Assembly: GCA_022340665.1 (NCBI GenBank)
Contig: JAJDNM010000123.1
Coordinates: forward strand, 1 to 32,632
Source of the DNA: Acidobacteriota bacterium
Lineage (GTDB): Bacteria > Acidobacteriota > Thermoanaerobaculia > Thermoanaerobaculales > Sulfomarinibacteraceae
Length of the DNA stretch: 32,632 nt
Direction of reading: 5' to 3'
Shown here: in pieces, positions 14,379-27,285 of the stretch
Layout of the letters: the number at the start of each line of letters is the position of its first letter
How positions within the stretch are numbered: the stretch's first letter is position 1
Notes under the pieces: generated by a model
What the model saw: only the letters and a program-made list of their open reading frames with translations
What the model was told of the DNA's origin: nothing
Database searches by the model: none
Made by a program: the position numbers and the translations under genes

Positions 14379-14406
14379 GGAATGAGGAATTCGGAATGAG
14401 GAATTC
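14379..14406. repeat. Perfect 14-bp tandem duplication
   Basis: GGAATGAGGAATTC occurs twice back to back (14379-14392 and 14393-14406), ten bases after the secF stop. It lies in a 228-bp gap with no gene. The following stretch (14457-14490) also contains spaced ATCCA-type micro-repeats. Confidence 0.9.
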
Positions 14407-14409
14407 CCA

Positions 14410-14456
14410 CCCGCCCAACCCCGCGGACATCCATTGTGAGCGTGGGGTAGGGCGGG
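14410..14456. repeat. Inverted repeat in the secF-rel gap
   Basis: CCCGCCCAACCCC (14410-14422) and GGGGTAGGGCGGG (14444-14456) are complementary at 12 of 13 positions with a 21-base loop. No U-tract follows, so this is at best a weak, factor-dependent terminator or an RNA 3'-end stabiliser for the sec operon. Confidence 0.5.
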
Positions 14457-14582
14457 AAATCCAATATCCAGAATCCAAGATCTGAAATCTACCCGTTCGA
14501 CCGGTCGACCACGGTCCTTCCACCAACCCCTGCTGCGCCAGGCACCGGGAACGACCTGATTTCGGAGTTTTCTTGACCCGAA

Positions 14583-22653: not shown

Positions 22654-23217
22654 ATGAAGCGCACCATCAATCCCGTCTTCGTCGCGCTCGCCCTCGCCGT
22701 GGTGACCGTATCCTGCGGTGGCGGCAGCACCCTCGACAACACCGAGGCGTCGGTCTACCTGACGATCGATATCGACGAATACAACCCGGATATCGATATC
22801 TGTTCCCAGGGGTTCGACATCGCCATCTCGCAGATGTCGATCGCGTCGGAGACGAAGGACCCCGCGGGAGATGCCACCGCGCAGCAGGACGTGAATTTGA
22901 AGCAGTGGGTGGTCAAACCCTATCGCACCGACGGCGGGACGACTGCATCACCGGAGTGGACGTATGACCAGGCAGTCTTCGTTCCCGCGGGCGGTAACGC
23001 GGACCTCGAGAACTACAGGGTGTATCCCTTCGAGTACCTGAGTGAGGTGCCGCTGGCGTATCTGCTGCCGGAGAATGGCGGGTTCGATCCCGAAACCGGG
23101 AACATCAATATCCGCCAGAGCTTCGAGCTACAGATCTTCGGTCAAACCGTGTCGGGCAAGCGTGTTGCCACGACACCGATATCGATCGCTTTCAATTTCT
23201 TCTGTGCGGGCCAGTAA
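22654..23217 (+). CDS. Predicted lipoprotein of unknown function, pil-linked
   Basis: A 187-residue protein I do not recognise. The N-terminus is a clear lipoprotein signal with lipobox ending VTVSC (C21), followed by a GGGST flexible stretch. The mature part looks beta-rich and acidic, with an early DIDICSQGFDIAI and a C-terminal FNFFCAGQ, so two cysteines could form a disulfide joining the ends of the domain. ATG 22654 has an excellent ribosome binding site (GGTGGAGG, five bases away) that begins at the pilQ stop. Its place between pilQ and the IPT lipoprotein suggests co-expression with the pilus. A pilotin-like or surface role is conceivable but unsupported by any motif. Confidence 0.75.
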   Translation: MKRTINPVFVALALAVVTVSCGGGSTLDNTEASVYLTIDIDEYNPDIDICSQGFDIAISQMSIASETKDPAGDATAQQDVNLKQWVVKPYRTDGGTTASPEWTYDQAVFVPAGGNADLENYRVYPFEYLSEVPLAYLLPENGGFDPETGNINIRQSFELQIFGQTVSGKRVATTPISIAFNFFCAGQ

Positions 23218-23236
23218 CGAGTGGGGGTCTGAAACC

Positions 23237-25519
23237 ATGAAGAGGTTTATTCCGTTTATTGCTCTCTTGACGCTGGTCGTCATGGTTGGATGCTCGGCCG
23301 ACAGCCCGAAACCAAGTAATGGCACGCCCGGCGTCGTTCCAACGCCGGCGTCCGATACGTGGGCCGTCAGCTCGCTGACCGCATCGAACACCGCGCCGTT
23401 CGTCGGCTCTGTCATTCTGTTGCAGGCCGACGTGACCCTCAACAGCTCGGAGGCTCCGGATGACACGGTCGTCACCTTCGAGGCCAGCGGCGGCGAATTC
23501 TCGAGCGGTAGCACCACGGCTTCGCCCCTGACCTCGGATGGGTCCGCGTCGGTGGCTTTCGTCGCCGAAGAGGCGGGTTCATACGCGATCAGGGCCCGCG
23601 TCAAGGGAGCGAGCCGCGAGATCGTGGTGGAATATCAGGATCGCGCGTCCACCGACGCGCTCCAGCTTTCGGGAGTCGATCCGCGTCGCGGATCCTATGC
23701 CGGAGGCGACCAGGTCACGATCACCGGTAAGGGGATCCAGGCCCCGGTGGACGTTTTCTTCGATCTCGACGGCTTCCCCTATCAGGCGATCATCGTCGGG
23801 GTGACCGAGAGCGATCCGCTCAGCGCGGACGGCACGATCACCGTCGTCACCCCGGCCTTCACAGGGACAGACACCGGCATCCAGCAGACCGCCGACGTAC
23901 GGGTGAACACCAACGCGGGCACCGGCTCCCAGGAGAGCGACACGCTGCCCGACGCGTTCGTGCTGCTGCCCGGCGGCGGGCCGCTGATCTTCGGCGTCCA
24001 GCCGGCTTCCGGCCGGTCCTCGGGCGGCGAGGTGGTCAACGTGCTCGGCCAGGGCTTCGGTTCGGTGGCCTCTGACCTCAGCGTCAGCTTCGCAGACACC
24101 GCCGGGGTGGTAAAGATCGGCACCGTGATCTCGGTGTCGCCGGACGGCACTCAGATCCAGGTCGAGACGCCTCGCTTCAGCACCGTCCCGCTGACCGCCG
24201 ACGAACCGCAGGACGTGACGGTGGCGACGGTGGACGGCGTGACCTCTCTCGAGGACGCCTTCATCGTGCTCGCCGATGAGCCGACGCCCGAGATCGCGTC
24301 GATCTCACCGACCGCGGGACCGCTCGATGGTGGCACGCTGGTGACGATCTTCGGCAGCGGCTTCCAGGTGCCGATGCAGGTGTTCTTCGGCAACCTCACC
24401 GCCATCGACGTCAACGTCTTCAACGACACCACGCCGGCCGACAACGACCGCATCACCTGCGTCACCCCCGATTACAGTCAGCAGGGCGACGTGCCGCCGG
24501 TGGAGGTCGACGTCAGGGTGCGGAACATGAACTCCGGGAACGAGGCGAGCTACAGCAGCTTCACCTACGGCGACCCGCTCTACATCACCGGCAACACGCC
24601 GACCGAGGGCGGCCTCGGCGATCTCGTCATCATCTACGGCTCCGGCTTCGAGGACCCGCTGCAGGTGTTCCTGGGCAATGCGTTGATGGAAGTTATCAGC
24701 GTCTCCGGCACCGAGCTCGTGGTCAAGATTCCGGACGATCTGGCGACCGAATGTGGCGGTTCGGCCGGAACGTTCGAGGTCGTTCTCCTCGAGACCGGTC
24801 TCAGGACCTCTGGCGGCAACTTCCGCATCGTCGGCAACACCCCGACCGTGCTGTCGGTGAACCCCATCATCCTGCAGGAACAGATGGGTGGCGATCTCTA
24901 TCCGAATGACATCACGATCACCGGCCAGTCCTTCGCGGACGAGGTGCTGGTGCAGGTCGGCTCCTACATCATGCCGTCGTCCTACGTGACAGTGAACAGC
25001 GACACCTCGATTGATGTCGACAATCTGCCTGAGGTGTCGATCCTCGGCATCACCTTTGGGACGACTCCGTGTACGACTGCCGGCGGACTGCCTGGTGCTC
25101 AATCGTCGGCGACGCCCCTCCCTGTCTCGGTCACCAACTTCCCGGGGTCCTGTACGGACACGCTCGCTGGCGCCCTGGTCGTCGAACCGTTGGCGAGCAC
25201 GTGTACCGCGCTGTCGATGTCGGTCTCGCCGACAAACATCGACTTCGGCACCTCTGCAAGCACGCAGACGTTTACGATCACGAACGACGGTCCGGGACCC
25301 TACGGATGGACAACCACCCTGAGCGACTCGGACGGCGTGTTCACGGTGTCGCCGACCACCGGCTATCTGAGCCCCGGCGAAGCCGTGTTGGTGAACGTGA
25401 CGTTCTCTTACGCGGGTGGCGCGGGCACCCACAACGGGTCCATTTCCTTCACGACCAATCCTGTCGGAGTTCCTGGATCAGAGGTGACCGTAACGTTAAA
25501 TGCAGAAACACCCCCCTAA
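23237..25519 (+). CDS. Large lipoprotein with Ig-like and IPT/TIG repeats
   Basis: A 760-residue secreted protein. Its lipobox ends MVGC (C19), followed by a low-complexity linker. Then come an Ig-like domain (about 47-135, with VTFEASGGEFSSGS), about five IPT/TIG-type repeats (about 140-640) recognisable by the recurring pattern P-x-x-G-x-x-x-G-G-x-x-V-x-I-x-G-x-G-F, and a C-terminal ASH/BACON-like beta domain (about 655-758, SPTNIDFGTSASTQTFTITN). IPT domains are protein-interaction folds of cell-surface proteins. ATG 23237 is the codon before the signal; the frame open to 23042 overlaps the previous gene. An outer-membrane surface scaffold or adhesin linked to the pilus is an inference from position. 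Confidence 0.85.
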   Translation: MKRFIPFIALLTLVVMVGCSADSPKPSNGTPGVVPTPASDTWAVSSLTASNTAPFVGSVILLQADVTLNSSEAPDDTVVTFEASGGEFSSGSTTASPLTSDGSASVAFVAEEAGSYAIRARVKGASREIVVEYQDRASTDALQLSGVDPRRGSYAGGDQVTITGKGIQAPVDVFFDLDGFPYQAIIVGVTESDPLSADGTITVVTPAFTGTDTGIQQTADVRVNTNAGTGSQESDTLPDAFVLLPGGGPLIFGVQPASGRSSGGEVVNVLGQGFGSVASDLSVSFADTAGVVKIGTVISVSPDGTQIQVETPRFSTVPLTADEPQDVTVATVDGVTSLEDAFIVLADEPTPEIASISPTAGPLDGGTLVTIFGSGFQVPMQVFFGNLTAIDVNVFNDTTPADNDRITCVTPDYSQQGDVPPVEVDVRVRNMNSGNEASYSSFTYGDPLYITGNTPTEGGLGDLVIIYGSGFEDPLQVFLGNALMEVISVSGTELVVKIPDDLATECGGSAGTFEVVLLETGLRTSGGNFRIVGNTPTVLSVNPIILQEQMGGDLYPNDITITGQSFADEVLVQVGSYIMPSSYVTVNSDTSIDVDNLPEVSILGITFGTTPCTTAGGLPGAQSSATPLPVSVTNFPGSCTDTLAGALVVEPLASTCTALSMSVSPTNIDFGTSASTQTFTITNDGPGPYGWTTTLSDSDGVFTVSPTTGYLSPGEAVLVNVTFSYAGGAGTHNGSISFTTNPVGVPGSEVTVTLNAETPP

Positions 25520-25523
25520 CGGA

Positions 25524-25567
25524 GAAATTTTCCCGCCGGCCTCGACGGGCCGGCGGGAGTAAATTTC
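25524..25567. terminator. Strong two-part hairpin overlapping the next ribosome binding site
   Basis: An inner perfect 10-bp stem, CCCGCCGGCC (25532-25541) and GGCCGGCGGG (25548-25557), has loop TCGACG. An outer 7-bp stem, GAAATTT (25524-25530) and AAATTTC (25561-25567), is separated by a T/AGT internal loop. There is no long U-tract. The GGGAG that would serve the next gene (25555-25559) lies in the 3' arm, and the ATG follows at 25568. It may attenuate transcription, limit translation, or both. Confidence 0.7.
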
Positions 25568-26935
25568 ATGGATTATCGTCTCGAGCAATTTCGCTTTGAG
25601 CTCCGGGAGGACCCGTCCTCCCGGATATTCTTCAAGCTCGGCGAGCACCTCCGTCGGGAGGGCGAGCTCGAACAGGCGATCGAGATCCTCAAGGCCGGGC
25701 TCGAGCAGCACACGAACTACGTTGCCGCGTGGGTCAGCCTCGGCCGCGCGCAGCTCGCCAACGGTGATACACGAGGCGCCCAGACCTCGCTCGAGCGATC
25801 GCTCGAGCTCGACCCGGAGAATCCACTCGCTTCGCGCGTGTTGGGAGAAGCGGCGATCGCCAACGACGAGTGGGTGACGGCGGTCAAGGCGCTCAAGCGC
25901 GCCCGTGGCCTGTCGCCGCAAGACGATGAGCTCGATGAGCGCATCGAGTTCGTTGAGGCGCGCCTGGCCGACCTCGGCCTGCTCGAAAAGCCGCCACCGA
26001 AAGTGGTGTCGGTCGACGTGGAGGGCACTGGGTCCGAAGGGGAGCCCTTCGCCATCCATTCCACCGGCGACACCGGAATCTGGGACGATGCGGACGATGT
26101 GTTCGCGGCGGGTGAAGTGGAGGACGATTCGGAAACGGCGGAGGACGGCTCCAAGGACGAGGCCGAGGAGCTGGCCGAGGAGGCGCAGGAATCTGCCGAA
26201 TCATCCGATGAGTTCGCAGAACCCGAGCCGCTGACGGAGGACGAGCTCTCCTCGATAATGGAAGAGGAGAGCGAGGACGAGGGAGCCGAAACAGCGGTCG
26301 AAGCAGGCGATGAGGAAGGCCCTGAGCTCGAAGACTCGGAGATGTTCGAGGAGGAAGATTTCGCGGTACCCGATTTCGAGCAGGATCCGGAATTCGAAGC
26401 GGAGCCTGAGGAGGAGCCGGAAGCCGAGGGTGAACCCGGGCCTGCCTTCGACCAGGAAGCGGAGCCCGAAGTCGACGCCGAACCCGAACCCGAGCAAGCA
26501 TTCGAGTCCGAAACGGAGATCGAGCCGGAATCGGATGCTGAGCCCGAGCCGGAGGATGAACCAGAAGAGGAGCTCGAAACGGTATCGGATCCGGAACCGA
26601 CCCCTCTGCCGGAGCCGCTGCCAGACTCATGGCCGGATCCGGATTCGGGTTTCAACCTCGAAAAGGACTCGGATGGGATTCCGTTGCCTACCATGACTCT
26701 TGCACGTCTCGCCATCGACCAGGGCGACCTCGACCTGGCGGAGAGAACCCTGCGCGGGGTGCTGGAAAGGGAGCCCGATCACCCTGAGGCGATCGAGCTG
26801 CTCGAAACCATGATCGCCGGACCTCCCGAAGGTGTTCAGCAAGGGACGGGGCGCGATCTCCTCGACGCCAAGGCGGAAGCGTTGCAGCGTTGGCTGGACG
26901 CAGTTAGACTGGCCTCGGAGAGGCTGAAGACGTGA
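25568..26935 (+). CDS. TPR protein with long acidic linker
   Basis: A 455-residue cytoplasmic protein without signal or membrane segment. TPR-like repeats occupy about 1-140 (ELEQAIEILKAGLEQHTNYV, AWVSLGRAQLANGDTRGAQT). A highly acidic, low-complexity region rich in E, D, P, S and A spans about 155-365 and should be disordered. A further TPR-like unit follows (about 375-410, LARLAIDQGDLDLAERTLRG) and then a helical end. The layout recalls FimV, a T4P-associated protein with acidic and TPR parts, but FimV also has a LysM domain and membrane helix that are absent here. The gene follows the pilus block and its end overlaps the Roadblock gene, so those two are likely partners. Confidence 0.8.
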   Translation: MDYRLEQFRFELREDPSSRIFFKLGEHLRREGELEQAIEILKAGLEQHTNYVAAWVSLGRAQLANGDTRGAQTSLERSLELDPENPLASRVLGEAAIANDEWVTAVKALKRARGLSPQDDELDERIEFVEARLADLGLLEKPPPKVVSVDVEGTGSEGEPFAIHSTGDTGIWDDADDVFAAGEVEDDSETAEDGSKDEAEELAEEAQESAESSDEFAEPEPLTEDELSSIMEEESEDEGAETAVEAGDEEGPELEDSEMFEEEDFAVPDFEQDPEFEAEPEEEPEAEGEPGPAFDQEAEPEVDAEPEPEQAFESETEIEPESDAEPEPEDEPEEELETVSDPEPTPLPEPLPDSWPDPDSGFNLEKDSDGIPLPTMTLARLAIDQGDLDLAERTLRGVLEREPDHPEAIELLETMIAGPPEGVQQGTGRDLLDAKAEALQRWLDAVRLASERLKT

Positions 26936-27285
26936 GCTTCGAAGAGTCCATGAACGAGTTGCTGGAGAGCTGTCCAGGGGCCCGAGGCGCGGCCATCGTG
27001 GATCCCGACGGCATTCCGGTGGTGGTGAGCCCGGGCGACGGCTCTCTCGAGGTTCTGGCCGCGGAGGTGGCGACCATCCTCCAGGATCTCGACGAGGCTG
27101 CCCGGGAGCTCCAGCACGGTCCACTCGAACAGTGCTCTGTGTTTGCGGAGGACGCGACCATCGTTCTGACGACAATTGCGGCGGGTTATTTTCTCGTCCT
27201 GGTCATCGGCCGCGAAGGGTTGGTGGGGAAGGGTCGCTTCCTGAGCAGGCTCGCGAGCGCTCGTCTATACTCCGAGTTCATCTGA
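26932..27285 (+). CDS. Roadblock/LC7 domain protein
   Basis: A 117-residue single-domain protein. The fold pattern is visible: an N-terminal helix (EESMNELLESCPGARGAAIV), the DPDGIPVV hairpin, the long helix EVLAAEVATILQDLDEAAREL, and strands with ATIVLTTIAAGYFLVLVI. Bacterial Roadblock proteins such as MglB regulate MglA-type Ras-like GTPases that set polarity of type IV pili and gliding machinery; no MglA gene is in this window. GTG 26932 overlaps the upstream stop as GTGA and GGAGAGG precedes it. The partner and function are inferred only from family and position. Confidence 0.8.
   Translation: MSFEESMNELLESCPGARGAAIVDPDGIPVVVSPGDGSLEVLAAEVATILQDLDEAARELQHGPLEQCSVFAEDATIVLTTIAAGYFLVLVIGREGLVGKGRFLSRLASARLYSEFI

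Follow-up and report, generated by a model that had tools for sequence, protein, structure and literature searches.

A conserved hairpin directly before the start codon of a TPR gene: a probable terminator-type element at the end of an acidobacterial pilus-IPT unit

What role does a strong hairpin play when it fills the gap between two genes and runs up to the start codon of the second one? This question is raised by the window, a stretch of 32,632 nucleotides that represents contig C123 of a 3.95 Mb acidobacterial genome (G000). On its plus strand, open reading frame calls and Pfam searches gave the order weak PilP match (scoring under Pfam's cut-off), secretin, an ORF without match, IPT/TIG protein, TPR protein, Roadblock protein, biotin-carrier protein and biotin carboxylase. 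The gap between the IPT and TPR genes is 48 nt long and structured up to the downstream start (Table 1). A sequence-only reading had interpreted this structure as a device that buries the ribosome binding site of the TPR gene and lowers translation of the TPR-Roadblock genes relative to the pilus genes. Comparison with relatives leads us, with moderate confidence, to read the hairpin as a terminator-type 3' end of the pilus-IPT unit, which in the family of the window stands right against the TPR start.

Anatomy and stability of the hairpin

The inner stem consists of ten GC pairs and begins 12 nt 3' of the IPT stop; the fold model adds the pairs U25531-A25558 and U25542-G25547. The bulge G25559-U25560 separates it from the outer stem of seven pairs, and the ATG follows at 25568. 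Sequence and fold agree with the two-part hairpin described earlier, with stems of 10 and 7 bp ending on the base before the ATG, and the GGGAG in the 3' arm, the missing U-tract and the IPT stop four bases upstream were all found as reported.

Table 1. Features of the IPT-TPR junction and its neighborhood, in positions of the window
Feature	Position	Strand	Basis or remark
Upstream IPT/TIG gene, HYDIN-like Ig domains	23042..25519	+	ORF; Pfam TIG 1.1e-26; start codon not fixed
Stop TAA of the IPT gene	25517-25519	+	outer stem begins after four further bases
GGAG next to the hairpin on its 5' side	25521..25524	+	last G pairs within the outer stem; same GGAGAAATTT block in G017, G018
Outer stem, 5' arm GAAATTT	25524..25530	+	fold; arms retained in G017, G018, and G001, G002 (one double change)
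Inner stem, 5' arm CCCGCCGGCC	25532..25541	+	fold; GC stem in 15/15 family genomes
Loop TCGACG, 6 nt	25542..25547	+	fold
Inner stem, 3' arm GGCCGGCGGG	25548..25557	+	fold
GGGAG, claimed ribosome binding site	25555..25559	+	mostly paired in the model; judged incidental
Outer stem, 3' arm AAATTTC, adjoins the ATG	25561..25567	+	fold
TPR gene	25568..26935	+	ORF; Pfam TPR_16 1.9e-16; relatives found by search
Second hairpin within TPR codons 12-19	25602..25625	+	listed by the terminator scan
Roadblock/LC7 gene	26932..27285	+	Pfam Robl_LC7 2.1e-11; overlaps the TPR stop

A stretch of 57 nt folds at -32.3 kcal/mol, compared to -16.7 ± 2.7 kcal/mol for 200 dinucleotide shuffles (z -5.7), none of which was as good; for a stretch of 121 nt the z value was -2.8 and one of 200 shuffles was as good. 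In a genome sample of 424,632 bases (849,264 nt with both strands) the site, scored on the minus strand, ranks 11th among 108 sites at or below -26 kcal/mol, and the gap with the hairpin ranks 5th among the 128 gene gaps scored. According to the fold model, the five bases of GGGAG are unpaired with probabilities of 0, 0, 0, 0.04 and 0.61, and the ATG of the TPR gene is mostly unpaired (0.87, 0.75, 0.41). The GGAG upstream of the hairpin is mostly paired in a 220-nt fold (unpaired 0.05, 0.18, 0.88, 0.01). A known Rfam RNA was rejected, since the window gave no Rfam match at the gathering score.

The second hairpin, inside the TPR gene, ranks in stability with the top 1.5% or less of synonymous recodings in 7/15 genomes of the window's family and in 1/15 of family f2, with the codon usage of G000 applied to all. 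As a proven partner of the junction hairpin it was rejected, because covariation was not clearly above controls (the score was reached in 19 of 500 shuffles and the number of paired cells in 46 of 500).

The hairpin in the family and in related families

An alignment search in the window's own family (f1) gave matches in 17 of 20 genomes. Fifteen of these were retained, having a readable TPR start of the same gene; dropped were G003, in which the match was another TPR protein, G004, which came without a start, and G005, G010 and G016, which gave no match. Class-wide, 86 genomes had a match and 57 junctions were read, including those of the families f2, f3, f4 and f17 and leaving out 27 of f6-f16, G145 of f17, and G004; four TPR start positions were placed by hand. 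A wider contig scan for relatives returned two loci, that of G018 and, at 29%, a TPR protein of a planctomycete, and a search for plasmid relatives of the junction found none at E 1e-5.

A strong hairpin fills the gap after the upstream stop in all 15 f1 genomes. Its inner stem is built of 9-13 pairs, including no fewer than nine GC pairs, and stops 10-18 nt short of the TPR start; the gap measures 48-59 nt in 14 genomes and 77 nt in G015. Since the stem sequences differ strongly between genera, it is the structure rather than the sequence that appears to be kept. By inspection, an additional AU outer stem, and with it the two-part form, is present in 6/15 genomes (G000, G017, G018, G001, G002, G012), and G006 has A- and T-rich flanks that are able to pair too. 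MAFFT displaced the outer arm of g2, another genus of the family, by one base, and outer-stem pairs were therefore counted on hand-set arms; among six pairs compared, one has changed on both sides, from G-C to U-A, between G000/G017/G018 and G001/G002.

G017, G018 and G019 belong to the same genus as G000. In gapped alignments, the last 55 nt ahead of the TPR start show an identity of 0.77-0.82 among G000, G017 and G018, compared to 0.44-0.60 at fourfold sites, and the blocks GGAGAAATTT and AATTTC are identical across the three. The junction of G019 has an identity of 0.40-0.46 to those of the other three, likewise in gapped alignments, which is not above fourfold sites. A GGAG beside the hairpin was found in 3/15 genomes, all of one genus, and is absent from G019 of that same genus and from g2.

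The families f2, f3 and f17 have their best stem farther from the TPR start, at a distance of 24-106 nt in all 39 junctions scored. Stems with at least eight GC pairs occur in 10/10 genomes of f17 and 16/16 of f3; 7/13 f2 stems have fewer than eight, and two further f2 genomes gave no stem. In the sole f4 genome (G055) the stem is again close to the start, at 9 nt, and a TAGAAT lies upstream of the stem. A T-tail was scored when the stem was followed by a T-run of at least four, or by six T in 9 nt. This rule gave T-tails in 6/15 f1, 7/10 f17, 5/13 f2 and 3/16 f3 stems; in f1 these are G006, G007, G008 and G011 by T-run, with T5-T7 tails at the same place in these four relatives, and G015 and G018 by T count. 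The window's stem, followed by AGTAAATTTC with a longest run of three and four T in 9 nt, fails the rule and is missing from the list of the terminator scan.

Domains of the upstream gene were checked in the 15 f1 genomes, 7/16 f3 and 9/15 f2 genomes. A TIG gene lies upstream in 11/15 f1 genomes and in 7/7 f3 genomes tested. The f1 exceptions are G017 with an Ig match, G012 with a weak Ig match only, and G009 and G011, whose upstream genes gave neither a TIG nor an Ig match. In f2, a T-tailed stem is present in five of six genomes with a TIG gene upstream (G025, G029, G030, G034, G035, G036) and in none of three with another gene at this position (G021, G028, G031); judging from these junctions, the f2 stem is linked to the identity of the gene upstream. 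This tracking of the upstream TIG gene and the layout in the relatives are the reasons for reading the hairpin as a terminator-type end of the upstream unit.

Start signals of the TPR gene

Shine-Dalgarno (SD) motifs were counted as GGAG, GAGG, AGGA or AAGG 4-20 nt before the start; upstream stop positions in this count are uncertain where the retrieved stretch was short. A motif was found in 1/15 f1 genomes, the window's own, and in 1/15 of f2, 2/16 of f3, 0/1 of f4 and 6/10 of f17 (three at -8 to -11). In G000, SD motifs are commonest 9-12 nt before candidate starts, and the GGAG at -12 of the TPR gene has an offset favored in this genome. TANNNT-type boxes have been taken as marks of leaderless genes in the work consulted (PMC3160421). 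Of 315 called genes of G000, 23 have such a box at -12 of a candidate start, compared to 13 at -13, 10 at -16 and 1-8 elsewhere. To judge from these counts, the genome uses both leaderless-type and SD starts.

TANNNT at -12 is present in 14/15 f2 genomes (TPR starts of G020-G036) and in 2/15 f1 genomes (G001, G002). Within f1, G015 carries it at -13, and a box anywhere in the last 30 nt is seen in 7/15 genomes, in four of these at -6 to -9 only. At no more than 30 nt from the start, the box was found in 10/10 f17 and 4/16 f3 genomes, and a looser box in f3 gave 13 matches at -18 to -36. A leaderless promoter for the window's TPR gene was rejected: positions -12 to -7 read GGAGTA and TANNNT occurs only at -8. 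A shared promoter position upstream of the f1 hairpin was not found, with no 4-nt bin beyond 16 nt having TANNNT in more than 3/15 genomes, and no promoter for the TPR gene stood out in f1.

Relatives therefore keep the stem (15/15) but not the sequestration of a binding site, and burial of such a site as the conserved function was rejected, with an SD motif near only one of 15 family starts. The GGGAG is most simply seen as the end of a G-rich arm, although the window's species may make use of it. What may survive of the proposed device is that a conserved hairpin at the start could hold TPR-Roadblock expression below that of the pilus genes.

Terminator-type end and competing explanations

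In f2, f3 and f17, three other families of the class, the stem sits between the upstream gene and the TPR gene and would leave room for a TPR promoter, and a -10-like box is often found in that room; in f1 this room is missing and the stem stands directly before the TPR start. We infer that it was f1 that lost the spacer, not the other families that gained it. As the RNA leaves the polymerase, the GC stem would form 12 nt past the IPT stop and could cause pausing or partial termination, which would be weak in the window, without a T-run, and probably stronger in the relatives with T5-T7 tails. Only part of the transcripts would then reach the TPR-Roadblock genes, and in read-through RNA the stem would crowd the TPR start. 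If termination is strong, the TPR, Roadblock, biotin-carrier and biotin carboxylase genes, which lie close together, would need another promoter. A terminating ribosome covers mRNA beyond the stop codon, and by this footprint the inner stem lies at or beyond its edge. The AU outer stem, four bases past the stop, is within reach, and its opening by the ribosome finishing the IPT gene, as suggested before, is conceivable.

With intrinsic (Rho-independent) terminators the hairpin shares a GC-rich, short-loop stem soon after a stop, and four relatives have the T5-T7 tail; it differs in the missing T-run, the second AU stem and the adjoining start codon. I-shaped terminators, with a strong stem and no U-trail as in the window, have been described, but whether such U-less structures terminate is disputed in the literature consulted (PMC5335608). 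As a yardstick, the sequences behind 42 tRNA genes of G000 and behind its RNase P RNA were inspected by eye. T-tailed hairpins follow about 9/43 of them, and U-less palindromes stand at or near the RNA end in 8/43 (C7:1769, C7:12089, C40:7903, C60, C25, C68, C28 and RNase P), several of which combine an AT-rich outer stem with a GC-rich inner one. These palindromes are only suggestive, because a CACGGCGTAG stretch is common to four of the eight, which are maybe repeats. Together with the T-tailed relatives, they weaken the earlier view that the structure looks less like a plain terminator.

The four tRNA genes concerned (C60:1250, C25:168, C68:2804, C28:43372) are directly followed by the palindromes and the common stretch, which may be tRNA-linked repeats. 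The GC palindrome of C40 (L031:1500-1541) has AAATTT flanks like the hairpin of the window; its neighbors are a class I (E/Q) tRNA synthetase gene on one side and a convergent tRNA-Leu on the other.

Several observations speak against a terminator. The window's stem has no T-run and escaped the terminator scan. The T-tail rule is failed by 9/15 f1 and 13/16 f3 stems, T-tailed hairpins do occur in G000, G019 of the same genus lacks the shared junction sequence, and G009 and G011 have no upstream TIG/Ig match, G012 a weak Ig match only. In addition, the constant gap (14/15) and the outer arms kept in one genus seem to exceed the needs of a plain terminator. One rival explanation, which we regard as unlikely, is an initiation bridged by the hairpin: the stem would fold out the gap and bring the IPT stop and the GGAG beside the TPR AUG, and post-termination ribosomes or a GGAG-bound 30S subunit would start the TPR gene without a nearer SD motif. 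The scarcity of SD motifs and of TANNNT at -12 at f1 starts, the narrow range of gap lengths despite very different sequences, and the blocks identical in G000, G017 and G018 at fourfold identities of 0.44-0.60 argue for it. T4 genes 25 and 38 with their split sites offer a precedent, having the same order of GGAG, hairpin and AUG at a gene junction; 44 nt would be folded out here, compared to the 16-17 nt given for T4 (PMC3014915), and the putative site lies on a bacterial chromosome, not in a phage. Bridging is opposed by the restriction of GGAG to 3/15 genomes, with G019 and g2 lacking it, by the pairing of the GGAG itself in the 220-nt fold and by the T5-T7 tails of four relatives; moreover, with the outer stem shut, about one unpaired base would remain between GGAG and AUG. 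Given a TPR start without conserved SD or visible promoter, a hand-over from IPT is possible if termination is weak and the operon lives on read-through. The fuller scenario, in which the f1 TPR-Roadblock operon lost its promoter and SD motif, the hairpin collapses the 48-59 nt gap and hands the IPT-ending ribosome to the AUG, and this split start evolved from a terminator, seems rather unlikely to us.

A translational brake, in which the 3' arm hides the GGGAG until the IPT-ending ribosome, a protein or heat opens the stem, is rather improbable as well. It agrees with a GGGA that is almost never unpaired in the model and with the favored offset of the GGAG at -12, and conflicts with the motif's occurrence near 1/15 family starts and the mostly unpaired ATG; the inner stem is all GC, unlike the stems of thermosensors. 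Coupling by unfolding has been discussed for rpmI-rplT at +52 nt in the source consulted (PMC12548453), where a structured gap comparable to the 48 nt here and an upstream stop beside the stem are found; the present junction differs in having no conserved SD motif to expose and an inner stem that begins 12 nt past the stop. An element for 3' end protection or RNA processing of the pilus-IPT mRNA, with no role for the TPR gene, would account for a stem in the short gap after the upstream stop in 15/15 genomes, T-tail or not, but would require neither the nearness to the TPR start nor a kept outer arm at the ATG, and we consider it quite improbable. That the hairpin is a copy of a dispersed palindromic repeat is extremely improbable and largely refuted: the genome has AT-flanked GC palindromes ending in GGCGGGAA, but no near-identical copies were found at unrelated places, the best DNA match elsewhere in the genome being 24 nt (E 0.011) with no second copy. 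The AAATTT-spacer-AAATTT pattern occurs at four places, two of them without evident GC stem by eye, and the hairpin is found at the same place in 15/15 relatives with different sequence.

Dispersed intergenic elements were seen at 14400-14500 of the window, at C7:2680-2740, C125:7140-7200 and C148:15810-15880 of G000, and elsewhere. In these elements, short AT-rich tandem repeats precede a GC hairpin with the GGCGGGAA ending or a similar one, which inverted AT repeats follow. Genome-wide, the core GGCGGGAAYTCAAAAYT is present 12 times and never read backwards; the element in the window is a looser match.

If the terminator reading is true, the family would carry a terminator on its neighbor's start codon at a place where relatives keep promoter room, with several forms visible among the relatives. 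If the hand-over were true, a start mode of T4 would be seen at work in a chromosome. In both cases, the junction advises caution against taking the G-rich arm of a stem for a ribosome binding site.
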